Made by a program: the position numbers and the translations under genes
The notes under the pieces: model-generated
What the model saw: only the letters and a program-made list of their open reading frames with translations
Databases searched by the model: none
What the model was told of the DNA's origin: nothing
Part shown: piece after piece, positions 21,739 through 41,260 of the stretch
How positions within the stretch are numbered: position 1 is the stretch's first letter
How the letters are laid out: each line of letters starts with the position of its first letter
From: Nitrososphaerota archaeon
GTDB lineage: Archaea > Thermoproteota > Nitrososphaeria_A > Caldarchaeales > Calditenuaceae
DNA length: 64,000 nt
Direction of reading: 5' to 3'
Assembly: GCA_009889515.1 (NCBI GenBank)
Contig: WUQR01000139.1
Location: forward strand, 992,001-1,056,000

Positions 21739-22389
21739 TCAACTTTTTTTGCTCTGGGCCACAACGACAATCCAAGGTGACGGGGAGCCCAGTCGGGGAG
21801 AGATCGGTGCTAGGGAGCGTGTGAGGAGAAGAGCGGGGATCATGGAGAAGGGGATGTGGAGAGCATTATAGATGGCTGTGAACAATAGCACGAAGAAGAG
21901 CTTCTCGCCCTCCGTAGTTAATGAGAGTCCCATGAAGCTTGAAAGGTATTTGGCGCCGAGGTCGAGAAAGAAGGGGAAGAAAGCCGTAAGTAACACGTAG
22001 TTAGCCATAGCCATTACGATAATCCTCGCACCCGCCCCGAATAATGCCAGTGAAACAGAGCAAACCCTCGTCCCCATACCCGTCGTAATGCGCGCGGCTG
22101 CCCAGAATCCTAACAGACTAGATGAGACCGCCAGATACTTCATTAAAGGGCCGATTGGTGTCCATTCACCGAACATGAGCAGTGCGAGGAAGTGGCTTGT
22201 AGCTGAGATAAAGCCGACCGCGGGGCCGAACATCAATATGGCGATGAAGGAGGGGATCTCGGCGAGGTCAAATTTAAGGTAGGGGAGGGGTGGAAACGGA
22301 AAGCTGAGTGGCAGAAGGCCTAGCGTGAACGCCAAACCGCCAAAGACTGCCCCTATCATAAGGCTCCTACTTTTAGGACCCTTCCTCAA
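21739..22389 (-). CDS. ECF transporter S component, RibU/ThiT-like (copy 1)
   Basis: Substrate-capture subunit of an energy-coupling-factor vitamin importer; about 216 residues with six hydrophobic segments. The N-terminal half carries LKFDLAEIPSFIAILMFGPAVGFI, resembling the K-x-D-x-x-x-I-P motif of riboflavin-type S components, so riboflavin or a similar vitamin is a reasonable but unproven guess. The TTG at 22389 is preferred because it aligns with the start of the duplicated fragment at 22670 and lies about 30 bases from the TATA-like TAATATATT. The frame continues to a TTG at 22407. No EcfA or EcfT is nearby, so a shared energising module elsewhere is implied. Confidence 0.82.
   Translation of the reverse strand: MRKGPKSRSLMIGAVFGGLAFTLGLLPLSFPFPPLPYLKFDLAEIPSFIAILMFGPAVGFISATSHFLALLMFGEWTPIGPLMKYLAVSSSLLGFWAAARITTGMGTRVCSVSLALFGAGARIIVMAMANYVLLTAFFPFFLDLGAKYLSSFMGLSLTTEGEKLFFVLLFTAIYNALHIPFSMIPALLLTRSLAPISPRLGSPSPWIVVVAQSKKS
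21744..21750 (+). terminator. T7 run downstream of the PAC2 gene
   Basis: Seven consecutive T residues begin 25 bases after the PAC2 stop. Archaeal RNA polymerase terminates at such U-tracts without needing a hairpin. The run lies within the last codons of the convergent ECF gene, read there as AAA codons. Confidence 0.5.
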
Positions 22390-22427
22390 CCCGACCACTC
22401 CGCACAATTTCTCAGCTAATATATTAT

Positions 22428-22439
22428 GAGTAAATACTC
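22428..22439. promoter_or_regulatory. Palindrome GAGTA-AA-TACTC, copy 1
   Basis: A perfect five-base dyad with an AA centre sits directly upstream of the TATA-like element (22416-22426) of the leftward ECF gene. It is also present in the second copy of the duplication, where it forms a six-base dyad. Despite divergence around it, the core is unchanged, which suggests selection for protein binding. The ArsR-like regulator next door is the obvious candidate. Confidence 0.5.
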
Positions 22440-22463
22440 GCGAACGTGTATCATCGAGTTAAG

Positions 22464-22670
22464 TCAATATGAAAACCAAAACGCCTTACCGAACATCAGT
22501 ACGGCGATAATGGGGGGTATCTCGGCGAGGTCAAATTTAAGATAGGAGAGGGTTGAAAGTGGAAAGCTGAGCCTTAAAAGCCCCAGTGTAAAGGCCATCC
22601 CGCCAAAGGCCACCAATACCAAAAAGACGACCCCTATCTTAAGGCACCAACTTTTAGAACCAGTCCTCAA
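22464..22670 (-). pseudogene. N-terminal fragment of the ECF S component (duplication remnant)
   Basis: About 62 of its 68 codons correspond to the first part of the intact neighbour: FGGMAFTLGLLRLSF matches FGGLAFTLGLLPLSF, and YLKFDLAEIPPIIAVLMFG matches YLKFDLAEIPSFIAILMFG. The match ends at the duplication junction (about 22485), after which the frame reads through copy 1 sequence to a chance stop. It encodes only one or two of six membrane segments, so it cannot be a functional S component. The TTG start and upstream promoter are retained. Confidence 0.8.
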
Positions 22671-22707
22671 ATCAACTATTCCACATAGTACCTCACGTAA
22701 TATATAG

Positions 22708-22721
22708 TGAGTAAATACTCA
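22708..22721. promoter_or_regulatory. Palindrome TGAGTA-AA-TACTCA, copy 2
   Basis: A six-base dyad lies between the promoter of the ECF fragment and the likely TATA box (CAATATAAAC, about 22745-22754) of the rightward regulator at 22778. The placement fits autoregulation by that regulator. Confidence 0.5.
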
Positions 22722-22777
22722 TAAATGCGTATAGCAGAGTTGAATCAATATAAACACCAAAATGGCTTATTATTGGC

Positions 22778-23080
22778 ATGATTTCGGAACAAAAGATTAC
22801 AGAGCTAAGCAGCATCTTCAATGCCTTAGGAAATGAGACGAGGCTCAAGATCCTCCTAATCGCAAGTCAGAACGACAGGCCCCTCCACATCAAGGCATAT
22901 GCGCGGCTTTTAAAGAAGAGATACTCGGCAGTTTACAGGCACATTACAATACTCCGGAGGGCAGGCCTCGTTACTGTCTATGAGGTGGGTCGTAGCAGGG
23001 TTGTAGCTTTGAGGAAGGGCTTGGACATAATGGCACTCTTCCAAACACTGGCCTCAATGGGAATTATCGCGAGTGAGTGA
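22778..23080 (+). CDS. ArsR-like winged-helix regulator
   Basis: A 100-residue DNA-binding protein consisting of little more than a winged helix: LSSIFNALGNETRLKILLIAS, a recognition region YARLLKKRYSAVYRHITILRRAGLVTVYEVGRSRVVALRKG, and a short helical dimerisation tail. It sits between two ECF S-component genes and next to two copies of a palindrome, so it probably controls vitamin uptake. No cysteine cluster for metal sensing is present. The TATA box about 28 bases upstream suggests a leaderless transcript; a T6 run at 23093-23098 follows. Confidence 0.82.
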   Translation: MISEQKITELSSIFNALGNETRLKILLIASQNDRPLHIKAYARLLKKRYSAVYRHITILRRAGLVTVYEVGRSRVVALRKGLDIMALFQTLASMGIIASE

Positions 23081-23092
23081 TATTAGTGTACA

Positions 23093-23098
23093 TTTTTT
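23093..23098 (+). terminator. T6 run after the ArsR-like gene
   Basis: A run of six T residues lies 13 bases after the regulator stop and before the promoter of the next ECF gene, in a position suited to U-tract termination in archaea. Confidence 0.4.
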
Positions 23099-23172
23099 GG
23101 TGATTTAGTAGTCAAGAAAAATGGAAATAAGATTCAAATTTATTAAACTCATACATACCTATACAATACGCC

Positions 23173-23799
23173 ATGAAGCGGGTAAACACTAAATGGGTCG
23201 CAGGCGTGGCGGTCCTAGCGGCACTCGCCTACGCATTATCTCTAATGAAGCTCCACATCCGCTACCCTCTCCTGCCATTCCTATCCTTCGACATCTCGGA
23301 GATACCTGACATCCTAGCCTACTTCATGTTCGGGATATCCGGAGGCCTAGTCGCCGCACTCGCCCACTGGATCGCATTAAACTTCGGGACACCATTTCAC
23401 CAGCTCATCGGACCCGCAATGAAACTCCTCGCCGTCCTAGCGACAATATTAGGCCTTGAGGCCGCCTCGCGAATCAAGGGTGGGTCAATGGTCCTGAACA
23501 GTGTTGCACTCGCCCTACTTTCGAGGACGGCAATAATGGCAGGCGCCACCTTCATCCTATACTACTACCTCTTCCCCGGCGTATACCTCCCATTCTCGAG
23601 AAGAGTGCTAAGCGGTATCGGGATTGCTGTAGAATCCGACCTAACCTTGGCGGCAGTCATGGTGGCCTTTACATCCATCTTCAACATCCTACACATCTTC
23701 ATAAGCGTCCTCCCAGCATACGCGGCATACAACAGAATACTGGTCACTCTTCCACAGCTCCCCACCAGGCATCCCCTAGTCAGGAGCCAGTCAAAATAG
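23173..23799 (+). CDS. ECF transporter S component (copy 2, divergent paralogue)
   Basis: A 208-residue membrane protein with six hydrophobic segments, paralogous to the S component at 21739. Both have a L-x-F-D-x-x-E-I-P motif in the first third (here LSFDISEIPDILAYFMFGISGGLVAALAHW), followed by a K-L-L-A-V or K-Y-L-A-V segment at the end of the third helix and a late FTSIFNILHIFISVLP matching FTAIYNALHIPFSMIP. Sequence divergence is high, so a different vitamin may be bound. An AAATTTATTAAAC element about 30 bases upstream is the candidate TATA. No energising subunits are nearby. Confidence 0.78.
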   Translation: MKRVNTKWVAGVAVLAALAYALSLMKLHIRYPLLPFLSFDISEIPDILAYFMFGISGGLVAALAHWIALNFGTPFHQLIGPAMKLLAVLATILGLEAASRIKGGSMVLNSVALALLSRTAIMAGATFILYYYLFPGVYLPFSRRVLSGIGIAVESDLTLAAVMVAFTSIFNILHIFISVLPAYAAYNRILVTLPQLPTRHPLVRSQSK

Positions 23800-25067: not shown

Positions 25068-25820
25068 ATGTCAAGAGAAGTGGTCGTAGAGACGGAGGGG
25101 TTGAAGAAGATCTATAAGCTGGGAAAGGTGGACGTAGTAGCACTAGACGGTGTTGATCTCAAGATCTATCGCGGCGAATACATCTCTATCATGGGCCCCT
25201 CAGGTTCGGGAAAGACCACACTATTCAACATGATCGGAGGATTGGACAAGCCCACCGAGGGGACAGTCTATGTAGACGGAGTAGACATCTCGAAGCTAGA
25301 CTCTTACGAGCTGGCTTGGCTTAGAAATAGGAAGATCGGCTACATCTTCCAGACATTCAACCTGATACCCACTCTAACGGCTCTGGAAAATGTTATGCTC
25401 CCGATGATTTTTGCAGGCGTCCCACGTGAAGAGAGATTTAAAAAGGCTAAAGAACTCCTCGAGACAGTCGGACTTGGCGACAGGCTGCATCACAGGCCCA
25501 TGGAGCTCTCAGGTGGCCAGCAGCAAAGAGTCGCAGTCGCAAGAGCGCTAGCCAACGACCCCAGCATAATACTAGCCGATGAGCCGACTGGAAACCTAGA
25601 CCTTAAGACAGGGCGGCAAATAATTGATCTACTAAAAGACCTGAACTTGAAGAGGAAAGTAACAGTAATAGCAGCTACCCACGACTTAAAAATGATCGAT
25701 GTATCTGACCGCATCCTGTGGATACGCGACGGAAAGATAGAGAGGGAGGAGGAGAGAGGCGCGGTTAGAGTTAGGGTAGGCGAAATAGAGGTTGGCGAAG
25801 ACCAAGAAAATAAGAAATGA
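25068..25820 (+). CDS. ABC transporter ATP-binding protein, MacB/LolD type
   Basis: A 250-residue ATPase with Walker A GPSGSGKTT near residue 43, Q-loop IFQTFNLIPTLTALENV, signature LSGGQQQRVAVARAL, Walker B ILADEPTGNLD and H-loop AATHD. The E-N-V-M-L-P-M and T-G-N-L-D forms mark the family that works with FtsX/MacB-type permeases in mechanotransmission and not classic import. No permease is adjacent. FtsX-like permeases without their own ATPase occur at 37026 and 42091 and are possible partners. It is leaderless according to the TATA spacing. Confidence 0.9.
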   Translation: MSREVVVETEGLKKIYKLGKVDVVALDGVDLKIYRGEYISIMGPSGSGKTTLFNMIGGLDKPTEGTVYVDGVDISKLDSYELAWLRNRKIGYIFQTFNLIPTLTALENVMLPMIFAGVPREERFKKAKELLETVGLGDRLHHRPMELSGGQQQRVAVARALANDPSIILADEPTGNLDLKTGRQIIDLLKDLNLKRKVTVIAATHDLKMIDVSDRILWIRDGKIEREEERGAVRVRVGEIEVGEDQENKK

Positions 25821-25847: not shown

Positions 25848-27185
25848 TCAGTGGGCTCGACTGATTATGATGTAGGAAATATTTGAAAGCATTATGCCGG
25901 CGAAGGCGGCTATATCAACCGGCACAACTTGTGATAATGCGAAAGAAAGCGTCGCACTGGCCGCGGGATAGGCTATACGCCACTTACTCGTCGGGAAAGT
26001 ATTAGGGAGGGGGAGAATAAAGAAGGCTATGAGGCTTAGCAAGGGATTAGTAAATAGTTTGAAGGCTGAGGATGGTATGATCAGTAGTATATCCGTGAGG
26101 GGCGCCTCTAGCTGCGACAGCTGAAAGGGGATAAAGAGAACTATCCAAGAAAATATGTAGGCCAGAACAAGGTCAATTGTTTTTGTAAACGCAGCTCTCG
26201 AGAAACCTAAGACTAGAAGTAATGTGAAAAAGGTGTAGAGGTTGTATGTCCCCCACCTAGAAGCTGCGAGTGAAGGTGAAGAGAGGAGAAGTATTAGGGT
26301 AAATGAAAATGCTATATGGTTCAGCCTAAGTTTTCTCTCCCCAGACAACACCCGCGCCGAAAATAGGCTTACCAGAACTATGGCCAGCGCACTAACATAC
26401 GACATGTTTATACACATGACAGTCAGTATAGATATTGTGAGCGCATCAAGCATGTTCCTGTACAACCCACCCTCAAATATTGAGATAAATAACGATACAC
26501 CAACCGCAGTGAAGATTGTTAAGCCTAGTAGGTAGATGTCTACACCGTATCCAGTATAAGTACCATACAACAGTATTAACGTCAACATCAGAGCCGGAGA
26601 TTTAAGAGTCTCCTCCCATAGGCTCTGTTTTACCTGGTTTTCACCCGTAAGGTAAAAAAGCTGTTTGAATACACCGCTTTTTATTATTAGAAGCAGTATA
26701 GGCAGGTACGCTGCAACGTTGAGGAGGAAGTGGAAGTGAACCATGTTGAAAAATTTTCCTAATATTCCTGTGCATGGGGTGCATCCTATGGTGAGAAACT
26801 CATACATTCTATACGTGTGTTCTACGAGATGATATGATTGAATGGCGAATCCTGCGATGAAGATGTTTGGGATAATGGCTTCTTTATCTAGCCTTATTAG
26901 GGACCATAACCTCATTCTGACGAGTATTATAGCGAGAAATACTAGGTATAATGCGTTGAAGATGAAGTGGTTCCACTCCAAGTCTAGGAAGAATAATAGA
27001 CCATTTGCAAGCTTTGTTGGTAAACCAAGTACCACGTGTTGATACATCTGGACGCTGTGCTCGATCATATGAAGTGTTTGCGCCACGAAGGCAGTTAACG
27101 CGACCGCGTTTAGCAGGCCATCTGAGTTAAGATCCTGAAGCCAATGAAGCACTACACTGCTTGTCTGAGCATTGCTATTCCTCAT
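25848..27185 (-). CDS. Polytopic membrane protein with duplicated histidine motif, family not recognised
   Basis: A 445-residue protein with about 12 hydrophobic segments. Two homologous units are visible in the first 180 residues. Unit 1 (about 30-85) has HMIEHSVQMYQH followed by WNHFIFN; unit 2 (about 115-170) has YHLVEHTYRMYEF followed by VHFHFLLN. Each gives an H-x-x-E-H-x-x-x-M-Y pattern in one helix and an H-F-x-x-N pattern in the next, suggesting paired metal or haem sites. The remaining helices lack such residues. It is the last gene of a five-gene operon and overlaps the FG-GAP gene by 11 bases. Export, oxidation or electron transfer are possibilities, none proven. Confidence 0.6.
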   Translation of the reverse strand: MRNSNAQTSSVVLHWLQDLNSDGLLNAVALTAFVAQTLHMIEHSVQMYQHVVLGLPTKLANGLLFFLDLEWNHFIFNALYLVFLAIILVRMRLWSLIRLDKEAIIPNIFIAGFAIQSYHLVEHTYRMYEFLTIGCTPCTGILGKFFNMVHFHFLLNVAAYLPILLLIIKSGVFKQLFYLTGENQVKQSLWEETLKSPALMLTLILLYGTYTGYGVDIYLLGLTIFTAVGVSLFISIFEGGLYRNMLDALTISILTVMCINMSYVSALAIVLVSLFSARVLSGERKLRLNHIAFSFTLILLLSSPSLAASRWGTYNLYTFFTLLLVLGFSRAAFTKTIDLVLAYIFSWIVLFIPFQLSQLEAPLTDILLIIPSSAFKLFTNPLLSLIAFFILPLPNTFPTSKWRIAYPAASATLSFALSQVVPVDIAAFAGIMLSNISYIIISRAH

Positions 27186-28839
27186 GCGCTAAGAGACCCC
27201 CGACTACACTACACCCTCCCTGCTCCTTTATGGAGAGGATACTATTCGCTGGAAGGTCTTTATATTCCTCGACGATCCCGCTCGGCCAATACACTGTAAG
27301 CCTATCAATACGCGAAGCCATCCCCAGACCAAAGTATAACCATGGACCATTGTCGGATAGAAAAGAGGTTCCTTTCACGACAGTCTGGCGGTAGACCCTT
27401 CCCAAGATTTCTATTTCTACTACAGCACCTACCGCTTCTCGACTAGTTTTATATGTACATGCGCCACAAAGCCAAGTACTTCCCTCCAGCCTAATTTGAA
27501 CCCAACGATTGCCTGTATGATTTGAGAGAACGTTTCTATAGAGTATGGGGTGTCCCGAGAGGTCGTAGAATAAAAGGTCGACGCCGCCGTCAAGGTCTGC
27601 ATCAACACACGTCAATCCGCGAAAGTTGCCATGTCTTGCCACACCGGCCTGCCAACTAGCATCGTAGAAAAATGGCCCAATGTTATAGAATATCTTGTTC
27701 ATCTGGTTGGGAGGCTTATCTGTCCTTACACCTATTTTTCCATTAGCCATAACAACGTCTAGGAGCCCGTTATTATCGATGTCGAGTATGCATACACCCC
27801 AACCAACCTGGTAGGGATCTGTTAATCTTACTCTAGGTGCAATATCATTGAAGTAGGAGCCCGTGTATTTTAGGAGTATATTATCGTCGTAGTTTGTCAC
27901 TATGATGTCCCAGTACCCATCCATGTCTATGTCTCCGTACGCCACACCCATCCACTGACCTATCCTCTCGACACCCATACTAGATGAGACGCTGGTAAAG
28001 CGTCTACCCTCCTCATTCCTGTAAAGCCGGGTATAGCCGAAGTCATTAGCTAGGAAGAGGTCTAAAAATCCATCTCTATCATAGTCTATGAAAGTGGGCT
28101 GGAATGTGTAGCCGTAGTCCAAGACTCCGAAAATGCCTGCAGACTCTGTAAAGGTTCCATCACAATTGTTTAGGAACAGTTGGTTACCTGCTCCTTGACC
28201 GAAAATTGTACCGCCTCTAACTAAGCGGAGATTAACATAGTATCCAATATAGAGGTCTAAACACCCATCCCTGTTTACGTCCCCCCAAGCAGCCCCTGCA
28301 GCATATTTCCCACTATTATGCAATAGACCAGCCTCGCGAGTTACCAGACTGAATTTGCCATTCCCCAGATTTTTAAACAGGTGTACATTGCCATATGGCG
28401 AGTCATAAAAGGTTACAAGTAGGGATGGGTATCCGCTGTTGTCATAGTCGGACCAAGTACAAGACATCCCTTTTTGACTCAGTTCTTTAACTAATAGTCC
28501 AGCCTCACTCGTCACATCTTCAAACTTGAATTTACCCTCGTTGCGGAAGAGCCTGCCCGGGGCGTTCCAGCCCACAATGTAGACGTCCAAGTCTCCATCC
28601 CTGTCATAGTCACCCCAACAACTCCCTACACCTGGAATCCAGAAAATCTCAGAGTCGTCGACAACTTTCACATAAAGGCCAGCGTCTTGCGTAACGTCTA
28701 GAAAATAGGGCTTGTTTGGGGGTAAAGAGGCTATTACTGTGGGCTGGATGGGTATTACATCGCTATTGAAGAGCCAATAGGCTAAAAGAACGAAGCACAG
28801 CGCGGCAGCGTATTTCTTTTCTATTCGCCGGCCGCTCAA
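27175..28839 (-). CDS. Secreted/anchored FG-GAP repeat protein with ASPIC/UnbV domain (CRTAC1-like)
   Basis: A 554-residue protein with an N-terminal signal anchor (about residues 10-27: AAALCFVLLAYWLF) and a beta-propeller of at least seven FG-GAP/VCBS repeats. Their calcium loops are easily read: DYDRDGDLD, DYDNSGYPS, DVNRDGCLD, DYDRDGFLD, DIDMDGYWD, DIDNNGLLD and DADLDGGVD. The last 110 residues match the ASPIC/UnbV module: VGAVVEIEILGRVYRQTVVKGTSFLSDNGPWLYFGLG and VDRLTVYWPSG-like wording (here IDRLTVYWPSGIVEEY). Family members are extracellular and often carbohydrate- or matrix-associated; the function here is unknown. It overlaps its neighbours by 4 and 11 bases in the operon. Confidence 0.85.
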   Translation of the reverse strand: MSGRRIEKKYAAALCFVLLAYWLFNSDVIPIQPTVIASLPPNKPYFLDVTQDAGLYVKVVDDSEIFWIPGVGSCWGDYDRDGDLDVYIVGWNAPGRLFRNEGKFKFEDVTSEAGLLVKELSQKGMSCTWSDYDNSGYPSLLVTFYDSPYGNVHLFKNLGNGKFSLVTREAGLLHNSGKYAAGAAWGDVNRDGCLDLYIGYYVNLRLVRGGTIFGQGAGNQLFLNNCDGTFTESAGIFGVLDYGYTFQPTFIDYDRDGFLDLFLANDFGYTRLYRNEEGRRFTSVSSSMGVERIGQWMGVAYGDIDMDGYWDIIVTNYDDNILLKYTGSYFNDIAPRVRLTDPYQVGWGVCILDIDNNGLLDVVMANGKIGVRTDKPPNQMNKIFYNIGPFFYDASWQAGVARHGNFRGLTCVDADLDGGVDLLFYDLSGHPILYRNVLSNHTGNRWVQIRLEGSTWLCGACTYKTSREAVGAVVEIEILGRVYRQTVVKGTSFLSDNGPWLYFGLGMASRIDRLTVYWPSGIVEEYKDLPANSILSIKEQGGCSVVGGLLAHEE

Positions 28840-29816
28840 AGCTCTATCATTTTGCCCAGTCTATGAGACTCATTAGCCATTATTGTAAGTTCGAGTGTCT
28901 TGTACGCGTCTGAATAGGGTGAAAGTATACGCGACTGGTCGCCGCTTCGAACTGCCTCGAAAAATATCTTCAGCTCCTCGAGGTACGGGTCAACAGCGCT
29001 ACGCAGGTCTTCAACTCTATTATTCCTATAGAATATAGCCTTTCTTTGATGTCCGACAATATCTACAACCAGCTCTCTTGCAAATATTCGCAGGAAAGTA
29101 TCCTGCATGGTGTTAACGCTCTTCCAAGTGGCTACAACAGTCGATGGAACGCCGCTTTTATGCCTGATGGTAATTATGGATGAGTCCTCAACATCTATAG
29201 AGTCATCTCTCGATAGCCTTCTCTCTAGCCTGGCGTAAACCGAGGCAGCCTCACCGGCAAAATATCTTATAAGATCAATGGTGTGTGTTACTTGCTCGAC
29301 TATCTGCCCACCGCTCGCAGACTTCTTTAACCACCAGTGGCCTGTAGGGAAGTTAGCAGCCCAGACATACTGCCCATAAATCATCCCAATATCTTTGGGG
29401 TCAGATAGTTCTTTTTTCGCGAGCTGAACCACGTCAAGGTATCTCCACATATATCCCACGCTGTTGATGACTCCTGTTTTCTCAATCTTTCGGAGTATTC
29501 TCGAGGCAACTTCTAGGTTTATCGCAACCGGCTTCTCTATGAATAGGTGAACCCCCTGCTCCAAGATGTCCTCCTCAAATCCGTGCGCGTTGGGCGGTAC
29601 CGCTATTAATGCCGCATCTGGTTTGGTGTCAGAGACTGCTTTAACAGGGTCAGAGTATGCGCTACACCCGAACCTATTCGCGAATTCTACCGCCTTGTCA
29701 CGCACAACATCAACGCACGCCACTACCCGAGCAACATCCTTTAATGATGCAAGACTTTTCGCATGAACATTCATTATGCCACCGCAACCGATTAAGACTA
29801 CGCTTAACGGTTTCAT
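28836..29816 (-). CDS. Gfo/Idh/MocA family oxidoreductase
   Basis: NAD(P)-dependent sugar oxidoreductase of 326 residues. The N-terminal Rossmann fold starts VVLIGCGGIMNVHAKSLASL, followed by the D-x-x-x-A-L-I-A-V-P-P-N-x-H segment and the catalytic EKPVAINLEVA motif near residue 93. The C-terminal domain holds GGQIVEQVTHTIDLIRYF with the conserved histidine-aspartate pair. Members oxidise inositol, glucose, glycosides or other polyols. The adjacent TIM-barrel isomerase and permease suggest a catabolic pathway, possibly via a 3-keto sugar. It is spaced six bases after the isomerase and overlaps the FG-GAP gene by four. Confidence 0.88.
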   Translation of the reverse strand: MKPLSVVLIGCGGIMNVHAKSLASLKDVARVVACVDVVRDKAVEFANRFGCSAYSDPVKAVSDTKPDAALIAVPPNAHGFEEDILEQGVHLFIEKPVAINLEVASRILRKIEKTGVINSVGYMWRYLDVVQLAKKELSDPKDIGMIYGQYVWAANFPTGHWWLKKSASGGQIVEQVTHTIDLIRYFAGEAASVYARLERRLSRDDSIDVEDSSIITIRHKSGVPSTVVATWKSVNTMQDTFLRIFARELVVDIVGHQRKAIFYRNNRVEDLRSAVDPYLEELKIFFEAVRSGDQSRILSPYSDAYKTLELTIMANESHRLGKMIEL

Positions 29817-29822
29817 GTAGCC

Positions 29823-30617
29823 TCACCCGTACCGCGAAATGAATTTAACAAATTTACGCAGCTCCTCTAGGGGGTCTCCAGTTATTCTGCACTCCAGAGA
29901 GAAATACTTGTCATACCCTTTCGAAAGGAGTGTCTTTATTGGAGTGAAGTCTGTATGTCCGTACCCGGGAAGCTGACGGTTGCTGTCTGCTAAATGTACG
30001 TGAACTATGTGTCTTGACGCTTGTGAGAGGGCATCCGAGATGCTGCTCTCCTCTATGTTCATGTGGAAGAAATCAGCCATTAATTTCAGACCATCCGAGC
30101 CCACTTCTTCGATGATTTCCAATCCCTGCTCAAGCCTATTTATGAGATGTGTCTCATACCTGTTGAGGGGCTCTAAAATGGCGCACACGCCGAGCTCCTC
30201 TCCCTTTTTAGCCAGAATCTTGCATTCGGCAACTAGTAGCTTCTTTTCGAGCTCCGCCACACTCTGGTATAGTGGTGATAAATCAGGAAGCTTGGCGCCC
30301 CCAAAGGTTGGTACAAATATAACCCCAATAGCTCCAATCACTCCTGCCCATTCAAGCCTCTGGACAATATCCTCAACCGCCTTTGTCCTCGCGTCTTTGT
30401 CTGGACTGAGAAGGTCGCCGCCATACCCGGCGCAAATAACTGAGGGCTTCACCTTATAGGAGGCTAACACCTCCCTCACCTCTCTTATCTTCTCTCCCAA
30501 TTGCGGTCGACCCCAGAGCTCTATGCCGCTAAATCCTAACTTCTCTAGGTTCTCAAGCTTCTCAGCTAGTGTGCCGCCCGGCACTAGGTTATCTTGGCAA
30601 GAGAGCTTCACACCCAT
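29823..30617 (-). CDS. Xylose-isomerase-like TIM-barrel sugar isomerase/epimerase
   Basis: A 264-residue barrel of the AP-endonuclease-2 fold (IolE/IolI/hydroxypyruvate-isomerase type). Seen: GFSGIELWGRP, a strand ending VIGVIFVPTFGG, the metal-ligand glutamate in CAILEPLNRYETHLINR near residue 130, LMADFFHMNIEE near 170 with aspartate and histidine ligands, HIVHVHLADSNR near 207, and a final FSLECRI with the last glutamate. Metal-dependent isomerisation, epimerisation or beta-elimination on a keto sugar is expected. It is 35 bases after the permease gene and six before the oxidoreductase. Confidence 0.85.
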   Translation of the reverse strand: MGVKLSCQDNLVPGGTLAEKLENLEKLGFSGIELWGRPQLGEKIREVREVLASYKVKPSVICAGYGGDLLSPDKDARTKAVEDIVQRLEWAGVIGAIGVIFVPTFGGAKLPDLSPLYQSVAELEKKLLVAECKILAKKGEELGVCAILEPLNRYETHLINRLEQGLEIIEEVGSDGLKLMADFFHMNIEESSISDALSQASRHIVHVHLADSNRQLPGYGHTDFTPIKTLLSKGYDKYFSLECRITGDPLEELRKFVKFISRYG

Positions 30618-30651
30618 TCACCTTTTGAGAGGGGGAATATAATGTTTTGAG

Positions 30652-32559
30652 TCACCAAGGCCATATCCATGAAGCCTTTGAAAGTAGAGTAAACGAAATT
30701 CCAACGCCCACCGTTATGCCAAGCCCCGAGAAGAATCCCGCTATGAAGAAGTTTTTCATAGACTCCCACCTCTCCCTACCGAAAGATCTTGAGATGACGA
30801 GGTTGGCTAATAGAGAGCCGATTAGTATTGTGAGTGCGTATGGTGGGAGTATAAAGAACCCAAGCACTATGGGGAATGTTGGGAAAGCCAGGCCAATCCT
30901 TTGGAACAAGACCTCGAGGGATACTATCCCAAGTGCTGACAGGGCTCCTATTCCGAGGTGCTCTGGTATCACAGCGATCTGCCGCGTTGCGAATAGGCTG
31001 TCATTAGTCGCGTATATCGGCCAGTAAATCATCGTGATCGGATAGACATTCGACGGGATTGGTGAAAGTCGCCAGAAAAAGTCCATGGCTATTAGTCCTA
31101 CTATACCGACCAGTGCGAAGGCTGCTGCGACGCCTATGAAGTAGTGTGTTGGGCGCGTGGAGGTGAGGTAGCTGACCTTTCCCAGCTGGGTCAGATATCC
31201 CGTATATCCCAAGTTGATGTAGGGCGAGTAGACCCACCCGGCATAACCTTTATAGGGGGTGAAATAGACGATGACCTGCCAGGGCCAAGGTATTGCCGGG
31301 AAATATCCCACCTCTCCGAAGGATCTGGCTGCGATCATCGCTATGAAAAAGCTAAGCCCGACCGAGGTGAGGAGGGCTACCCATGCTGGAAAACCAGGGA
31401 CCAGCACCAGGAATAGGACAACTGATCCAAGGGATGAGAATAGAAATAGAATTAGTGAGAATCTTAGGGGAAGGTCTGCCTCCCGCGGCCTGATAACTGC
31501 GGATGCGAAGAGCCTCAGACTCCTTGAGAAGGTTTTATGATATGCGAGGATCAATGCAATGGCGATACCTATTATGAAGCCGAATTGTGGACTAATCCAT
31601 ATCCTCTGGAAGGACCTCTGATATATTGAGCCTATGGTCATTCCCTTGTAGTATTCTGAGAACCAGAGAGGGAAGAAGTTGGGTGAAGAGGTGAAGATTG
31701 TATTGGCTACAATCCAGATTGCTGTAGATCCGATTAGGGTTGATACTGCGACTTTGATTGGAAGGACCATACCTAGTCCTAGCGTGAATGGGTCTGTGGC
31801 AATTCCGACCAGTGCTCCGGGAATATACTTCTCGGTAAGCCAGACAAAGTCGAACCAAGGTATTGGGAGGAGAGGGACACCAAACAGGAAACCTGCATAG
31901 GTCATGAAAGCGTAGATAACACCTGTGAGGATGCCAAGAATGTATATGGACATCTGCTGCTCCTTTCTCTCTATTAGGACATTTATTAGAGACGCCTCAA
32001 CGTGCGCTAACGGATACCTCAGCTTCTCCTCTTTGACGAATATGTATGTGAACATGATTGCTAGGCCGATCTCCGCCATGGCCAGCAGGGCGAATGAAAG
32101 CCCAGTCACGATTAACGCTGAGACCCAATCGGGGTGAAGGAGTGTTCTGAGCTGGTAGACAGGCGAGAAGGTAGGTGGCGCCAGCCACGTAGGAACTAGC
32201 TGGTTAATAGGGGTTCCATCAATCAAGAAATATTGGGTAATAGGCGTGGTGACATAGAACGTCCTATAGACTAACCAGTAGTAGGGGGGAAGAGTAGAAG
32301 ACATGACTGCAACGCTGCTGTAAATGACGAATAACTCCTGCTTTCTCAGTGGTGTTCCAAAAAATCTTGTAAGCTCCGCGAAGAGTATCGCTATTATCGT
32401 AACTGCAATAGCTGGGGAGAGTGCACCAGATATGAGGTTAAGGTAAAGTGATACGGGTATGAACAGGACAGCAGCGGTTAAAATTGCTAGAATCACCCTC
32501 CACGAAATACCATATTCTAATTCTTCGGAGGGCTGAGCCTCTTTCAGCTCCGTCACCAA
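30652..32559 (-). CDS. Large OPT-like permease (DUF6784/DUF6785-related), first gene of the sugar operon
   Basis: A 635-residue membrane protein with roughly 14 hydrophobic segments. A charged EEKLRYPLAHVEASLINVL segment after the fourth helix and a C-terminal LAFPTFPIVLGFFILPPYALTILIGSLL followed by FIAGFFSGLGITVGVG recall oligopeptide-transporter (OPT) family architecture and the uncharacterised DUF6784/6785 proteins. It shares the pattern R-x-x-x-x-x-L-R-x-Q-E-L near residue 75 with the divergent 697-residue protein, so the two are distant paralogues. Position at the head of the isomerase-dehydrogenase operon suggests uptake of that pathway's substrate. TTG at 32559 or GTG at 32556 is the start. 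Confidence 0.62.
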   Translation of the reverse strand: MVTELKEAQPSEELEYGISWRVILAILTAAVLFIPVSLYLNLISGALSPAIAVTIIAILFAELTRFFGTPLRKQELFVIYSSVAVMSSTLPPYYWLVYRTFYVTTPITQYFLIDGTPINQLVPTWLAPPTFSPVYQLRTLLHPDWVSALIVTGLSFALLAMAEIGLAIMFTYIFVKEEKLRYPLAHVEASLINVLIERKEQQMSIYILGILTGVIYAFMTYAGFLFGVPLLPIPWFDFVWLTEKYIPGALVGIATDPFTLGLGMVLPIKVAVSTLIGSTAIWIVANTIFTSSPNFFPLWFSEYYKGMTIGSIYQRSFQRIWISPQFGFIIGIAIALILAYHKTFSRSLRLFASAVIRPREADLPLRFSLILFLFSSLGSVVLFLVLVPGFPAWVALLTSVGLSFFIAMIAARSFGEVGYFPAIPWPWQVIVYFTPYKGYAGWVYSPYINLGYTGYLTQLGKVSYLTSTRPTHYFIGVAAAFALVGIVGLIAMDFFWRLSPIPSNVYPITMIYWPIYATNDSLFATRQIAVIPEHLGIGALSALGIVSLEVLFQRIGLAFPTFPIVLGFFILPPYALTILIGSLLANLVISRSFGRERWESMKNFFIAGFFSGLGITVGVGISFTLLSKASWIWPW

Positions 32560-32587
32560 ATCAGTTACATTTCAATCCATATAGCCC

Positions 32588-32655
32588 TTTTTATAGATTT
32601 ATCCGCAAGATAAGCAACCCCATTTAAATTGATTGCAAGTAAGATTTATATAAAA
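32588..32655. promoter_or_regulatory. Divergent promoter region between the two large permeases
   Basis: The 121-base gap holds two TATA-like elements. CTATAAAAAGG (leftward, about 32588-32598) is about 30 bases from the start of the 635-residue permease, and ATTTATATAAAAG (rightward, about 32643-32655) is about 28 bases from the ATG at 32681. No obvious dyad lies between them. Confidence 0.55.
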
Positions 32656-32680
32656 GTAAATTGCATCCTTAACCGAGAAA

Positions 32681-34774
32681 ATGAGCGCACAACCACCTTC
32701 CGTTATAAGAGGATTAACCGCAAGGTCCATATTAATCGGCGCAATCTTGGTGATCGTTGCCCAAGCAATAGGCGACATGACATGGCTATACACGTCGAAG
32801 ACCGGCACAATCAACGCCTTCTGGCTCCCCTTCATCTACATCGTACTACTCAACGAGCTGATAGGCCGCGCCAATCCACGGCTCAGGCTAACTGCACAGG
32901 AGCTCGTATGCATCTTCCCAGCGCTCGCCCTTGTTAACAGCATAAAGTACTATCCGAAGGGTGCCTTGAGCGGTGGCGAGGCTCTTTCAGGCTACATAGA
33001 GAAGACGATCGTATCGGTTGGTGCTGGGATGAACGACCCGACCACTGGGGAGTATTGGCGGATGATGACTCCCCCCTGGATGTTTCCAAAGGATCCCACA
33101 ATGATTGCTGCTTGGCAGACAGGGTTGACGCCAGGCCAGCAAATCCTCTGGGGCGAGTTCCTTCCGCCGATAATTTACTGGTCGCTCTACACAATTCTAA
33201 TGTACTATCTGGCCCTCTTCCTCGGGTTCGGCGTTTGGGGGAGAAGATGGGTTGATGTAGAGCGCCTTATCTTCCCGCTCTCAATCCCGATGATTTACAT
33301 GATACGAAACGCGTCCGACATTGATCCGGCTACGAATAAGTCGAGATGGTTCCGATTGCAAGAGCCAACTCTTAGAGTGTTCTGGGTGGCTTTCTTCATA
33401 GGTCTGATAGCCTCGCTCATACCCGTGTTTGGCGAGATTGTTCCACCGTTAGCTGTCTTCGGAGCATTCGCTTGGGGAGAGCAACCAATACTGATCTTCG
33501 GGCTTCCATCGATAATGCCAGGCGCAATGGCAAAGGGTGTATTCCAGGTCGACCAAGTGGCGCTCTGGCTATTGCTGCCAAACAATCTACTCATAACGGC
33601 CGTACTAGCATATGTCGTCTTTGGCCTCCTCTATCAGTGGATCGGCGTCATAAGCGGGGCACTGCCCTACAACCCCGGAATGGAGTTCCTCTGGAACTGG
33701 GAGGACATTCCAGCCAACTGGTTCCCATTCCCATACAGACACGTAGGAATACTAGGAATGATGGTGGGGCTAGGCATAATCACTTTGATAACGCTCAGAT
33801 CACGATTCATGGATCTTGCCCGCGCATTAAGAGGAAGATCTGAAGACGAGTATGGACTATCTACAAGATCTATCGCATGGTTTGGATTAATAGTTACCAT
33901 AGCGATTCTAGCCCTCTTTACGGCATCCGGGGTTCCATTCATCATTGCATTAGCAATGGTGGTGTTTGCATACATCTACTGGACTGCTCTGGCGAGAGTA
34001 ACCGCGACGATGTGGTGGCACGTAGACGACTTCGCGAACAACGGAGGAGTGGGCACCTACATCTTCCCACTGGGCGTCGCGCTGGGATATTGGCCTGCAA
34101 CTGTACCAACAACCGGAACCACAAACTTCGGGCTCTTCGCCACAGGCATACTCACAATCCCATTCAACAATACATGGACTCTCAGGGTCAACGGCTTCGG
34201 GCCAGGAGCCGCCGTGACATATTACAAGATTGCCAGAGAGACAGGCACCAATGTCCGAGACGCCCTAGTGGCTGCTTCAACGATCATAGCGATTGGCGTG
34301 GTGTTTGGGTACGTGTGGAGAATATGGCTTCTCAACCACGCTGGAGGTCTTGCGAACTCTAATGCATGGGCATGGACATCCGGCATGAAATTCAGCAACT
34401 TCATAGGAGGAACATCTTACGTCCCAGTAGGTGCGACAGACTGGGTACCAGGCCTCACCTACGGACTTATCGGAATCATAATTGTAGCCGTCGTCTGGTT
34501 CCTGAGGTCAAGGTTTGCATGGTTCTTCATCGACCCAACCTCGCTAACCATGAGCATGGCAGTGGGCCTGATATGGACTTGGCTATCAGGCCTAGTGGCC
34601 CTGATAATAAAGGTGGTACTGATCAGGACCATAGGTGTGAGAAGATTCGAGTCATACGTCATCCCCCTCGCTGCAGGCATATCGCTTGGCTTCGGCGCGC
34701 CAATCCTCCTAGCAGGGCTCATAGAGTTCTTCGCCGTGGTGCTGCCGAGATTCTCAGCCCAATTCGTACCCTAA
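32681..34774 (+). CDS. Large OPT-like permease (DUF6784/DUF6785-related), divergent paralogue
   Basis: A 697-residue protein with about 14-16 hydrophobic segments. Its first 220 residues match the DUF6785 layout as I recall it: GTINAFWLPFIYIVLLNELIGRANP, then PRLRLTAQELVCIF, a soluble loop ending TPPWMFPKDPTMIAAWQTGLTPGQQILWGEFLPPIIYW, and WGRRWVDVERLIFPLSIPM. The C-terminal RRFESYVIPLAAGISLGFG recalls OPT proteins. No transported substrate is known for these families. It is divergent from the operon at 25848-32559, probably under joint control, and followed by a T6 run. Confidence 0.62.
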   Translation: MSAQPPSVIRGLTARSILIGAILVIVAQAIGDMTWLYTSKTGTINAFWLPFIYIVLLNELIGRANPRLRLTAQELVCIFPALALVNSIKYYPKGALSGGEALSGYIEKTIVSVGAGMNDPTTGEYWRMMTPPWMFPKDPTMIAAWQTGLTPGQQILWGEFLPPIIYWSLYTILMYYLALFLGFGVWGRRWVDVERLIFPLSIPMIYMIRNASDIDPATNKSRWFRLQEPTLRVFWVAFFIGLIASLIPVFGEIVPPLAVFGAFAWGEQPILIFGLPSIMPGAMAKGVFQVDQVALWLLLPNNLLITAVLAYVVFGLLYQWIGVISGALPYNPGMEFLWNWEDIPANWFPFPYRHVGILGMMVGLGIITLITLRSRFMDLARALRGRSEDEYGLSTRSIAWFGLIVTIAILALFTASGVPFIIALAMVVFAYIYWTALARVTATMWWHVDDFANNGGVGTYIFPLGVALGYWPATVPTTGTTNFGLFATGILTIPFNNTWTLRVNGFGPGAAVTYYKIARETGTNVRDALVAASTIIAIGVVFGYVWRIWLLNHAGGLANSNAWAWTSGMKFSNFIGGTSYVPVGATDWVPGLTYGLIGIIIVAVVWFLRSRFAWFFIDPTSLTMSMAVGLIWTWLSGLVALIIKVVLIRTIGVRRFESYVIPLAAGISLGFGAPILLAGLIEFFAVVLPRFSAQFVP

Positions 34775-34813: not shown

Positions 34814-35449
34814 GTGAGCGAACTAGAAACTATCAAACTTGCTCTCGGCGACAAGATTTCTAACATAGCGTGGGACCTCGATGGCTGGGTCATTCTCCTG
34901 AAAGATTCAAACATATCCAACCTCAAAGTATCCCGAAGGCTGGTGGGAATATCTTTTGACTGGGAATGGCACTTCGTGACACCATTAATTATACGGGAGG
35001 AGGTCGACGAAGCTGGGTTGCGTCTTTATAGAGAGATGAAGCGTAGAGAGGTTCAGATAAAGAGGAGAGGAATACTGAGATATTCCTATGAGTGGGTGAC
35101 AGGCGAGCTGCTCAAGAGGGTCTTCCCCGAGATAACACCTGAAAACGACTTGCTTACCTTGCTGAACAGGGACGAAAACCTCCAACGATTGCTTAAACGC
35201 TCTTCCATAGATGAGCTCTACATAAACACTTACTTTGAGCTGGGTGGGGCCACCCTATCCGACGAGACTGTCAGAAAATACTATGAGTCGCCCACGATGG
35301 TCGGCTGGCTCATAACAGCGATCAAGGGCCCCGGCTCCGAGTGGAGGTTTGGCCCAATTGTTAAAAGGATCTATGAACTGCTCGACTACCTCGCTGGCAA
35401 GCTTCTCGGGTTTTCTAGGGAGCTTGAGTCGAGGCTCGCCTTCCTATGA
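34814..35449 (+). CDS. Unrecognised soluble protein
   Basis: A 211-residue protein that I do not recognise. It is soluble, with a beta-rich first third (NIAWDLDGWVILLKDS, LVGISFDWEWHFVTPLIIREEVDE) and a helical, basic remainder (REMKRREVQIKRRG, then LLNRDENLQRLLKRSSIDELYIN). No cysteine or histidine clusters, P-loop or helix-turn-helix are evident. The start is GTG. It follows the permease after a T-run, so it probably has its own promoter, and its last six bases overlap the convergent glycosyltransferase gene. Codon use looks like that of its neighbours, so it is likely a real gene. Confidence 0.55.
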   Translation: MSELETIKLALGDKISNIAWDLDGWVILLKDSNISNLKVSRRLVGISFDWEWHFVTPLIIREEVDEAGLRLYREMKRREVQIKRRGILRYSYEWVTGELLKRVFPEITPENDLLTLLNRDENLQRLLKRSSIDELYINTYFELGGATLSDETVRKYYESPTMVGWLITAIKGPGSEWRFGPIVKRIYELLDYLAGKLLGFSRELESRLAFL

Positions 35450-37025: not shown

Positions 37026-40000
37026 ATGAATATGCTGAATAAGATTTATACGCCGCGTTCACTTATGCAGGGTAGAATGGCTCCCCGCTCAGCAATTTTT
37101 GCGACGATTACCCTGTTTATTGTCTTGTACATTCTCGTTAGCTGTGCCGTTGCGAGTACGCAGGATGTCGCGCAGTCCATGATAGTTTTCACTGTTTTGA
37201 GGAGTGATAATAGGCCCGTGGAAGACGGGGTGAGGTTTGTACTGCAGGAGCCTTCAGGCTCGAAGGTAGTGCTTGAGACAGTGGGTGGAAGGCTGGTGGT
37301 TCCGGCTATAATGGGAGCACGCCTAGTGGGTCCATTGGTAGGGAGCGGGGAGGCCTATCTCACGATTAACACCTCTCTAGAAAGTTTCACGGATTCAGGC
37401 TTAGAGCCTGTGATTGTGCTTGAGAGGGCTGTCATAGTGAAGTTTGTTGAGCTGTTTCCCTGGATCGATGGAAGCCCATTGGTGGTCCACTATAGGCTCG
37501 AACTGGAGGGTGGTGGGTCGACTTATCCTAAGACAATGCGCTGGAGCCATAATGTCGACGAGTTGAAGCGGATAGTTGGGCTTGGAGAAGGAGAGGTCCT
37601 TGTCCCACTCTCCCTAGGCTATAGGCTGTATGGGGAATTTGAGGCTGCGGGAGGCGGGATGGCTAGTTGGACGGCAGATCTCACAGGGCTAATCCGCAAA
37701 GCACAGGTGGTCTCTCTGCTTCATGCAATATATCCTCAGGCCATGAGTCTGGTGGAGGGTGTCGCCTCGGAGACTTGGGCTAAGCTTGAGGATCTTACCG
37801 GGAGAGGGGTTTATCTAGGATACCAAATAGCCAGGGTTGAGAGGGCTAGTGAGCGTATCGAGTCTTCGAGAGAGTTGTTTGAGCAGGGTCGGTTGGACGA
37901 GGCATATCAGCTGCTTAGGAGGGCATACATGGACTTAGTGGGAGTCAGCGCGGTATTGTCAGGCTATGAGGGTCGATGGGTTTCAGGCGGTATTCTCTTT
38001 CCGCTCTTCATGGTTTTAGGAGCTCTAACATTTAGCCACCTAGTCTTCGGTGAGAAGAAGTCCAGCATATTGGCGGGTTTAGGTTTGATTACCGCTATTA
38101 CATTCGGCCTTATGGCAGTCTCATATCCGTTTTTACTGCCTGGTGACGCGTGGGGATGGTCAGCCCTCCTCTATAGCATACTTGCCATGCTAGGCCTATT
38201 CTTGAGTATCCCTTCTCTCGGACTTGAGGTTAAGACGCAGCGCGGAGTCGCATTGCTTGCAGCCTCGTCACTAGCGTTCAGTGTTGCGAAGAGGTTTCTA
38301 AAGACACGGCCTATGAGAACATGGATAATGGTGGCGATGGCTACCATCACGGTGTCATCCACCCTGCTTCTTATCAACACGGGCTTCGAGAGCGAGGTAT
38401 TCGTATCAAGCCCGCTAGAAAAAGCCAGCCCACCAGATACACCCTACATTATAGCGTATAGCAGAGAATATAGATACGATAACTTGGCTGCTGTGGATAC
38501 GCGCTATGTAAGCTTCTTTAGAAGCCTCGGCTTGAATGTCGGACTGAGGGCCGAGACGCCAATAGCGCCGCCAAGCGGCACCGAATACTACATCAACAAC
38601 AAGAGGTATAACCTGAGAGGTATTATTGGTGTTTCGGGCAATAATCCTCTGCCAAAAGAGCTGTCACAATGCATCATTTCTGGAGAGGTAGACAGTGTCG
38701 GGGTGCAATCCTCAGCTTCAGTCATTTCGCAGGACTTGGCGGAGAATCTTGGAATCACGGTTGGTTCTCAGATAATCGTTAATATGCTAAAGCTTCGAGT
38801 CGTTGGAATAATTGGAATTGATTGCCCAACGTATCTTAAGGACGTCGACGGATATTTTGCCTCCACACTTATCCAGCCTCCCATGTCCCCCGTTACCCCC
38901 GCAGGCTGGTCGAACATAATAGTGACTGGCTTTGACGAGGCTGTGAGGCTAGGTGCTATCCCCACCAAAATATACGCAACAGGCGGAGGGGACGATAAAA
39001 TCTATGAACTCGCCGAGGTGATAAGCCTCCACACCAATCTCAAGGTCAGGGTCATTAAGTCTGGGGGTGAGGTCTACGTCTTTAACCTGGTAGGGTTACG
39101 GGGTATCTCGGGTGGAGAGGTTCTTGTCGTTGCAGGTATCGCCTTCTTAAACCTCTTGGTCGCCTCCTTGGCCAACTATTATGAGAGGAGAGGGGAATTC
39201 TTCACAATGTCAACCCTGGGGCTCAACCCTGGGCATATCATGCTGCTAACTTTGGCAGAGGCCCTATTCCTCGGCACCGTCTCCGCGTTTCTGGGAGTGT
39301 TGGTGACGCTTGTCGTCCTGAAAATTGTACCCGCTGTTGCACCCATACCCATTGACTTCAAGCTATCGATGGAGAGCTTGATGGGGATTCTCACACTCTC
39401 CGCCATAATTTTCATTACCTCACACACCGTATCGGTTCGTAGAAGCATCATACTCAGCACGCCGGCACAGACTTGGAAATGGACCCTGACGAAGACTCTA
39501 GACGATGAGGGGTATTGGAAGGTCGAGCTGCCAGCCAAGCTTAAAGCATCAAGGATTAAACACTTCACAACCTACATAAGCTCTAGGCTCAGCGAATACA
39601 GCTACACCACTACTGTGAACATAAACGTCCAAGGAGTTGAAGAGGATGTCACGGTAGGGGTCCACAGGATAAGATTCATCTATTCTTCAACAGAGCAGAG
39701 AGCATTCAGGGCCGTCTGCATACTTGAGGTGTATAGGCGGGGGGAGTGGTGCTCACTTGTCCTACGATCGAAGATTGAGGCACAGGACGCTAGGTTCATT
39801 GACCAGTATATTAGAGAGATAACCCAGCTTATCCGCCAGTTCACCATAGAGTATGCCTCCTTGACTATTCGGGTCTTAGCTCCGCTGGGACGGGACCTAG
39901 GGCATATCCTGCCGCTGCTATCCGTTTACAATCCTAGCGAAGTTAAGCTCGTATGGCGCGGAACTTCTGAGGAGGATTTGAGAAGAGCGGTAGAGGAGTT

Positions 40001-40244
40001 GGAGAGAAACATGGTTAGGGTCGCTGTGGTCAGGTTGTCGTCTTCAGGCTCGATAGCCTCTGATGCTAGAACTGTTATCGAGGCGGCCAAAGACTGCGAC
40101 TTGGTCTGCATATCATCTGACGACGGGTATCTCTCCTCCATTGCGCTACTGACTGCTCAGCGTCTTAACAAGAGGATATGCATTGTCAGGGACTCTACAG
40201 TTGTCGAGGCCACAGCCGCAAGCCTGTGGGAGCAGCTCCGCTAG
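37026..40244 (+). CDS. Giant FtsX/MacB-like permease with extra N- and C-terminal domains
   Basis: A 1,072-residue membrane protein. Layout: a signal-type helix (about 20-45); an extracytoplasmic region with a helical hairpin (about 46-315); three helices (about 318-410); a helix RTWIMVAMATITVSSTLLLI (about 432); an extracytoplasmic MacB-like core (about 455-690, containing SVISQDLAENLGITVGSQIIV); an FtsX-type block of three helices (about 695-810, with NYYERRGEFFTMSTLGLNPGHI between the first two); and a C-terminal cytoplasmic domain of about 240 residues. No ATPase is adjacent; the lone MacB-type ATPase at 25068 is a possible partner. A second ATG two codons in is equally likely. Confidence 0.72.
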   Translation: MNMLNKIYTPRSLMQGRMAPRSAIFATITLFIVLYILVSCAVASTQDVAQSMIVFTVLRSDNRPVEDGVRFVLQEPSGSKVVLETVGGRLVVPAIMGARLVGPLVGSGEAYLTINTSLESFTDSGLEPVIVLERAVIVKFVELFPWIDGSPLVVHYRLELEGGGSTYPKTMRWSHNVDELKRIVGLGEGEVLVPLSLGYRLYGEFEAAGGGMASWTADLTGLIRKAQVVSLLHAIYPQAMSLVEGVASETWAKLEDLTGRGVYLGYQIARVERASERIESSRELFEQGRLDEAYQLLRRAYMDLVGVSAVLSGYEGRWVSGGILFPLFMVLGALTFSHLVFGEKKSSILAGLGLITAITFGLMAVSYPFLLPGDAWGWSALLYSILAMLGLFLSIPSLGLEVKTQRGVALLAASSLAFSVAKRFLKTRPMRTWIMVAMATITVSSTLLLINTGFESEVFVSSPLEKASPPDTPYIIAYSREYRYDNLAAVDTRYVSFFRSLGLNVGLRAETPIAPPSGTEYYINNKRYNLRGIIGVSGNNPLPKELSQCIISGEVDSVGVQSSASVISQDLAENLGITVGSQIIVNMLKLRVVGIIGIDCPTYLKDVDGYFASTLIQPPMSPVTPAGWSNIIVTGFDEAVRLGAIPTKIYATGGGDDKIYELAEVISLHTNLKVRVIKSGGEVYVFNLVGLRGISGGEVLVVAGIAFLNLLVASLANYYERRGEFFTMSTLGLNPGHIMLLTLAEALFLGTVSAFLGVLVTLVVLKIVPAVAPIPIDFKLSMESLMGILTLSAIIFITSHTVSVRRSIILSTPAQTWKWTLTKTLDDEGYWKVELPAKLKASRIKHFTTYISSRLSEYSYTTTVNINVQGVEEDVTVGVHRIRFIYSSTEQRAFRAVCILEVYRRGEWCSLVLRSKIEAQDARFIDQYIREITQLIRQFTIEYASLTIRVLAPLGRDLGHILPLLSVYNPSEVKLVWRGTSEEDLRRAVEELERNMVRVAVVRLSSSGSIASDARTVIEAAKDCDLVCISSDDGYLSSIALLTAQRLNKRICIVRDSTVVEATAASLWEQLR

Positions 40245-41220: not shown

Positions 41221-41260
41221 GTAGATAAGTCCGCGCGGTTAGATAAAAGGCCTCTGAGGG

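Follow-up and report, generated by a model that had tools for sequence, protein, structure and literature searches.

An OPT-superfamily permease operon of a Calditenuaceae genus combines a putative sugar-enzyme pair with a propeller and a histidine-rich membrane protein, and its permease belongs to a widespread archaeal trio

Five genes lie on the minus strand of the window, by which we mean the whole stretch of 64,000 nucleotides that was analysed, which comes from a hot-spring archaeon. Gene 1 (30652..32559) encodes an OPT-superfamily permease of 635 aa recognized by Pfam OPT. It is followed by gene 2 (29823..30617), a xylose-isomerase-like TIM barrel of the ketose-epimerase type with 264 aa (Pfam AP_endonuc_2), and by gene 3 (28836..29816), a Gfo/Idh/MocA oxidoreductase of 326 aa that was also assigned by Pfam. 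Gene 4 (27175..28839) encodes a CRTAC1-like protein of 554 aa with an FG-GAP propeller and a UnbV_ASPIC domain, both found by Pfam, and gene 5 (25848..27185) a histidine-rich membrane protein of 445 aa belonging to no Pfam or NCBIfam family. An earlier note had described five same-strand genes here, and all five reading frames were found intact on the minus strand. The inter-gene spacing from gene 1 to gene 5 is +34, +6, -4 and -11; the last three values agree with those given before, while the first had been put at 35.

The order of genes 1 to 5 was identical in all six available genomes, representing six species, of one Calditenuaceae genus (Caldarchaeales). Because the genes flanking the operon are syntenic across these genomes too, synteny within the genus is weak evidence taken alone. 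The close or overlapping spacing was preserved although the identity of gene 5 falls to 56% (56-85% within the genus, compared with 89-97% for the OPT protein and 92-98% for its DUF6785/DUF6784 neighbour). Gene 1 is separated from this divergently transcribed neighbour by 121 bp (32560..32680, no strand assigned) with TATA-like elements facing both ways. In the six-species alignment, TATATA was present on the DUF6785 side in every species, and four of the six also had a TATA-like element upstream of the permease gene. A single transcript is favoured by the tight spacing that has been kept and by one TATA-like element ahead of gene 1, and we conclude that genes 1 to 5 are a real operon. The five-gene unit was not found at the OPT loci and gene 2 orthologue loci inspected beyond the genus. 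The conserved gene order that the earlier note proposed to look for was thus seen in six genomes of the genus and at none of the outside loci inspected.

Gene 1 matched Pfam OPT (PF03169) with 37.9 bits and an E value of 1.1e-9, passing the curated cut-off of 25.8, in line with its earlier description as an OPT-like permease. No PDB sequence match was obtained at E≤0.1. A profile search detected relatives at E≤1e-10 in 41 of 349 Thermoproteota genomes, many of which had several copies. The divergent neighbour (32681..34774, plus strand) is a permease-like protein of 697 aa carrying DUF6785 and DUF6784 (Pfam PF20581 and PF20580). This gene had been left out of the earlier description and proved to be the permease's most constant partner after a giant membrane protein of about 1,500 aa. 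Thirty-three OPT loci outside the genus were fetched, mostly the stronger matches, with at most three matches scored per genome. The giant was present in all 33, whole in some and in others split or truncated where the contig ends. In 30 of the 33 Thermoproteota loci the OPT gene had a DUF6785-type neighbour, two of these 30 genes being recognized by Pfam only and assigned by length and place. The three loci lacking the DUF6785 gene sit at or near contig ends. This constant pairing with DUF6785 and the giant distinguishes gene 1 from OPT transporters as the family (PF03169) defines them.

The pairwise identities of the OPT, DUF6785 and giant proteins were highly correlated (r 0.96, 23 loci), a value reached in none of 2000 permutations. 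The giant of the genus, which is encoded at a distant locus, was closest to those of L062 and L063, the same loci to which its OPT and DUF6785 proteins were closest. Divergent copies were found within single genomes, for example G248 (L062, L071 and L076) and G279 (L063 and L078), indicating that the correlation does not merely reflect the species tree, though shared species history contributes. Such correlations, like co-occurrence, are in part a product of common ancestry and lifestyle. Searches of plasmids with the OPT and DUF6785 proteins gave no match, and no description of DUF6785 or of an OPT/M28/FtsX association turned up in the papers searched. The trio of OPT permease, DUF6785 protein and giant is thus widespread in Thermoproteota and apparently undescribed, and it forms the best-supported and newest part of this analysis. 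A small protein of 211 aa (34814..35449, plus strand) appears to be an occasional member of the permease system, as profile matches identified counterparts among the system genes at four loci (L068, L069, L071 and L072).

The giant fuses two kinds of protein in one polypeptide associated with OPT permeases. Its N-terminal part resembles M28 aminopeptidases, aligning to the PA-containing enzymes 2ek8 and 6hc6, and its C-terminal part resembles the FtsX-type permeases of LolCDE and MacB, with matches to LolC, MacB and LolF. Unlike the M28 enzymes, it lacks the catalytic motifs. At the positions of these motifs, placed by the alignment and by what is known of active M28 peptidases, 12 aligned giants (compare the segment FSGHWQALAG) had the bridging Asp replaced in nearly all cases, the Glu-Glu replaced in all, and an incomplete HxD. 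With these motifs lost, the giant should not be a peptidase. In the genus, a full-length giant of 1,581 aa is encoded about 850 kb from the window and was found in six of six genomes, adjoined by a Gfo/Idh/MocA gene and an FAD oxidase gene. At locus L105 (L105:4671-15023), the giant of the genus has divergent genes for an aldo/keto reductase and a Gfo/Idh/MocA protein as its neighbours, and two unclassified proteins of 339 and 296 aa come after it.

Further FtsX-related genes surround the operon. A membrane protein of 1,072 aa (37026..40244, plus strand; FtsX PF02687, E 4e-10) is like the C-terminal part of the giant, with an E value of 8.7e-26 against the giant profile, and has no M28-like domain. 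Its counterpart of 1,021 aa adjoins the OPT gene in L099, and it is possible that this protein takes part in the permease system. Downstream of the operon and convergent with it lies a LolD/MacB-type ABC ATPase gene (25068..25820, plus strand), whose product is 92-98% identical within the genus and matched NCBIfam LolD with an E value of 5e-75, below the cut-off of that model. This ATPase might serve as the motor of an FtsX-type partner. No close counterpart of it was seen beside OPT loci elsewhere, and the idea that it regularly accompanies them was rejected. The window also contains a compact minus-strand cluster (40246-42687) of a luciferase-like monooxygenase, an AP_endonuc_2 barrel and a 198-aa, nearly bare FtsX domain protein; the last two genes overlap by 4 bases.

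The two putative sugar enzymes were then compared with characterized proteins. Gene 2 matched AP_endonuc_2 with an E value of 3e-36, and E149, D182, H208 and E242 were invariant in the alignment. Its PDB matches were 3kws (E 6e-39), YcjR 6wn6 (E 2.8e-34; by its PDB name a 3-keto-D-glucoside 4-epimerase) and TM0416 2zvr (E 2e-33). The alignment to YcjR is full-length (residues 2-253) and places the Glu, Asp, His and Glu metal-ligand positions in register. It should be noted that 3kws outscores YcjR, that the 5-keto-gluconate epimerase IolO (TM0416) is about equally near, and that the best NCBIfam model is IolO at 143 bits, far under its cut-off of 300. Gene 3 carries the motifs GCGGIM and EKP, and its PDB matches were DgpA1 (9m3d, E 2e-19), 3ezy (E 4e-19) and DgpA (7xr9, E 4e-17) within a broad superfamily. 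DgpA1 is its best solved relative and DgpA ranks third, and gene 3 could plausibly carry out 3-oxidation of the same kind.

Orthologues of gene 2 (E<1e-80) were detected in 18 further genomes. A gene 3-like gene was adjacent at six of the 18 loci (L155, L156, L160, L169, L170 and L172), two of which also carry an alpha-L-fucosidase gene beside the pair. Genes 2 and 3 are therefore an independently conserved pair in other archaea. The OPT system was present in 15 of these 18 genomes where about 1.8 would be expected (P ~2e-14, relatedness uncorrected). The view that the oxidoreductase and the barrel are partners in 3-keto sugar chemistry was strengthened by the DgpA1/DgpA and YcjR relatives, by the conserved pairing and by this co-occurrence. 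The DgpBC-type cleavage of C-C bonds proposed along with it was not borne out. Structures of the C-glycoside deglycosidase alpha subunit are available (7EXZ, 7EXB and 7DNM; PMC8563793), and none of them matched gene 2 even at E 0.1; no gene like the beta subunit (DgpB) occurs within the operon, whose five genes are otherwise accounted for. Because gene 2 lacks deglycosidase matches, we dropped the DgpBC reading and retained the 3-keto chemistry. Another parallel is the E. coli ycj cluster, a 3-keto-glucoside pathway (YcjQ/R/S) with an ABC transporter (PMC11543891). In both, genes for an epimerase-type TIM barrel and a Gfo/Idh/MocA dehydrogenase lie side by side and come with a transporter, whereas the operon has an OPT-type permease in place of the ABC transporter and has no second dehydrogenase.

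Gene 4 contains five FG-GAP_3 stretches and a UnbV_ASPIC domain by Pfam, the latter above cut-off, as well as seven DxDxDG motifs and one N-terminal hydrophobic segment that forms a membrane anchor. Its sole PDB relative was human CRTAC1 (9etn, E 1e-10). The propeller and the UnbV_ASPIC domain are thus shared with CRTAC1/ASPIC-UnbV proteins, from which gene 4 differs in being archaeal, membrane-anchored and encoded in overlap with the gene for an HxxEH membrane protein. That protein, the product of gene 5, gave no Pfam family and no PDB sequence match. Its N-terminal domain (about residues 25-170) has four TM segments and the pattern HxxEH...DLEWNHF...HxxEH...CxPC...H, with H39, E42, H43, H50, E70, H73, H119, E122, H123, C135, C138, H150 and H152 invariant; the C-terminal membrane half has no family assignment. 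DUF6008 was considered as the family of gene 5 and rejected, as the best match (E 0.03, 12.7 bits) was under cut-off and control genomes matched as well. Structure prediction, which had been suggested for this protein, succeeded in part. AF2 modelled the full-length protein poorly (six sequences, pLDDT 44), whereas the N-terminal domain alone yielded a usable four-TM bundle (pLDDT 80, pTM 0.75), for which no PDB fold match was obtained at E≤0.001. In the helix limits of this model, the conserved His/Glu/Cys residues cluster at one helix end. A metal or redox centre probably sits there, and a weak charge bias suggests that this end probably faces outward.

UnbV_ASPIC was found in seven of 349 Thermoproteota genomes, six of which belong to the Calditenuaceae genus, and the HxxEH domain of gene 5 in seven of 398. 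Given this rarity, both were probably acquired laterally in Thermoproteota. Relatives of the HxxEH domain were sought in plasmids and viral contigs, and nothing was found. In the Liptonbacteria phylum, the domain occurred in one of 333 genomes. At the Liptonbacteria locus L018, a gene for an FG-GAP/ASPIC protein and one for a stand-alone HxxEH protein overlap by 1 base. This locus, a single case, is independent support for the pairing of propeller and HxxEH domain. At L017, L019 and L028, the HxxEH domain is present in genomes that have no ASPIC domain. At one of these (L028:8289-9705, in a same-phylum archaeon with a 3.2-Mb genome), the stand-alone HxxEH membrane protein adjoins a Met/His-rich secreted protein, a neighbour that may hint at a metal role, perhaps involving copper, for the HxxEH protein.

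The five genes had been read in the earlier note as one coupled system, and the distribution of their parts does not agree with this. Elsewhere the permease travels with DUF6785 and the 1,500-aa protein, the enzyme pair sits apart outside the genus, and the propeller/histidine pair is missing from nearly all Thermoproteota. We conclude that the operon joins three modules, each with its own history, in an arrangement peculiar to the genus. The genomic neighbours of the OPT genes were examined for signs of the substrate. Among large neighbours at OPT loci, at least 8 of 56 were carbohydrate-active (GH31, GH1, GH2, three GH57, GH130 and a pectate lyase), whereas control regions from these genomes had at least 3 of 49 (P 0.15). 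A strong carbohydrate signal was not reached. The suggestion of a carbohydrate or glycoside ligand thus keeps a weak lean of the neighbour genes toward sugars in its favour, without clear enrichment. Other genes recurring near these loci were noted as well. A secreted protein of about 905 aa is encoded next to the OPT gene in related genomes (L067, L068, L069, L070 and L073; its CBM_4_9 domain was tested in L073), and B12-binding/radical-SAM-type genes recur at OPT/DUF6785/giant loci L076, L077, L078, L091 and L101. In the window itself, two divergent ECF-type substrate-binding membrane paralogues (about 35% identical) lie at 21739-23799 with a small gene for a putative helix-turn-helix regulator between them.

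Our main reading, to which we give a probability of roughly 45%, is that a glycoside is taken up, oxidised at C3 and epimerised by the system, which would also have a metal or redox site outside the cytoplasm. The product of gene 1 and its divergently encoded DUF6785/DUF6784 neighbour would probably form one permease. This permease would work with the giant of about 1,500 aa, whose outer, degenerate PA/M28 domain would bind its ligand and not cut it, and whose membrane part would be FtsX-like. In the cytoplasm, gene 3 would probably act as an NAD(P)-dependent enzyme oxidising C3 of the glycoside, and the 3-keto product would be epimerised or isomerised by gene 2, as in the pair YcjS and YcjR. 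Outside, the calcium-binding propeller of gene 4 would sit with the membrane domain of gene 5. A more specific version can be drawn, in which the two permeases are a heteromer driven or gated by the single giant, with non-catalytic, receptor-like M28 outside and FtsX mechanotransmission in the membrane, and in which the genus has wired this machine to the 3-keto-sugar enzyme pair and to a new His/Glu/Cys membrane metal-site family. We put this version forward as a doubtful but conceivable one.

The OPT family is best known for carrying oligopeptides or metal chelates. The trio could accordingly import peptides, glycopeptides or peptide-like metal chelates, with the sugar enzymes sharing the promoter through accidental gene capture. 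The family membership of gene 1 speaks for this, and so does the giant, whose outer domain is nearest to PA-containing M28 aminopeptidases; a pseudo-peptidase would be a natural peptide-binding domain, and both the habit of the family and this peptidase fold keep a peptide cargo possible. Most OPT loci also lack directly adjacent sugar enzymes. However, the catalytic residues of the M28 domain have been lost, the neighbours of OPT genes include the glycoside hydrolases and pectate lyase named above, TrmB sugar regulators and the CBM-bearing protein, and the OPT system strongly co-occurs with gene 2 orthologues. On balance, we regard peptide import as unlikely.

Two other explanations seem less probable still. 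The trio might be an envelope or export machine and not an importer, its FtsX part transmitting force as in LolCDE/MacB. The matches of the giant's C-terminus fit such a role, as do the genes on the flanks of the operon for a LolD-type ATPase and another FtsX protein, but the ATPase is not conserved at OPT loci elsewhere and OPT-type permeases are not generally known to export, so that we consider this improbable. Equally, genes 1 to 5 might be merely adjacent, genes 2 to 5 having arrived by lateral transfer as a cassette that is functionally unconnected with the permease. The confinement of the five-gene neighbourhood to the genus and the scarcity of the ASPIC and HxxEH domains in Thermoproteota would be expected then. 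Against it stand the order and tight spacing kept in six species while gene 5 diverged, and the joint presence of gene 2 and the OPT system in other genomes; mere adjacency thus has little to recommend it.

Returning to uptake and C3-oxidation of a glycoside as the preferred reading, the parts differ in what they mean for archaeal biology. The propeller and the histidine-rich protein are rarities among archaea, and the gene 5 domain represents a membrane family that has no Pfam model and probably carries a metal site. The OPT/DUF6785/giant trio, on the other hand, recurs across many lineages, often in several copies per genome, and OPT permeases carry their annotation as oligopeptide transporters from family resemblance alone. 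Should DUF6785 and the giant be invariable partners of the OPT proteins in hot-spring archaea, and should the cargo be sugar, current views of nutrition in many uncultured Thermoproteota would be mistaken.
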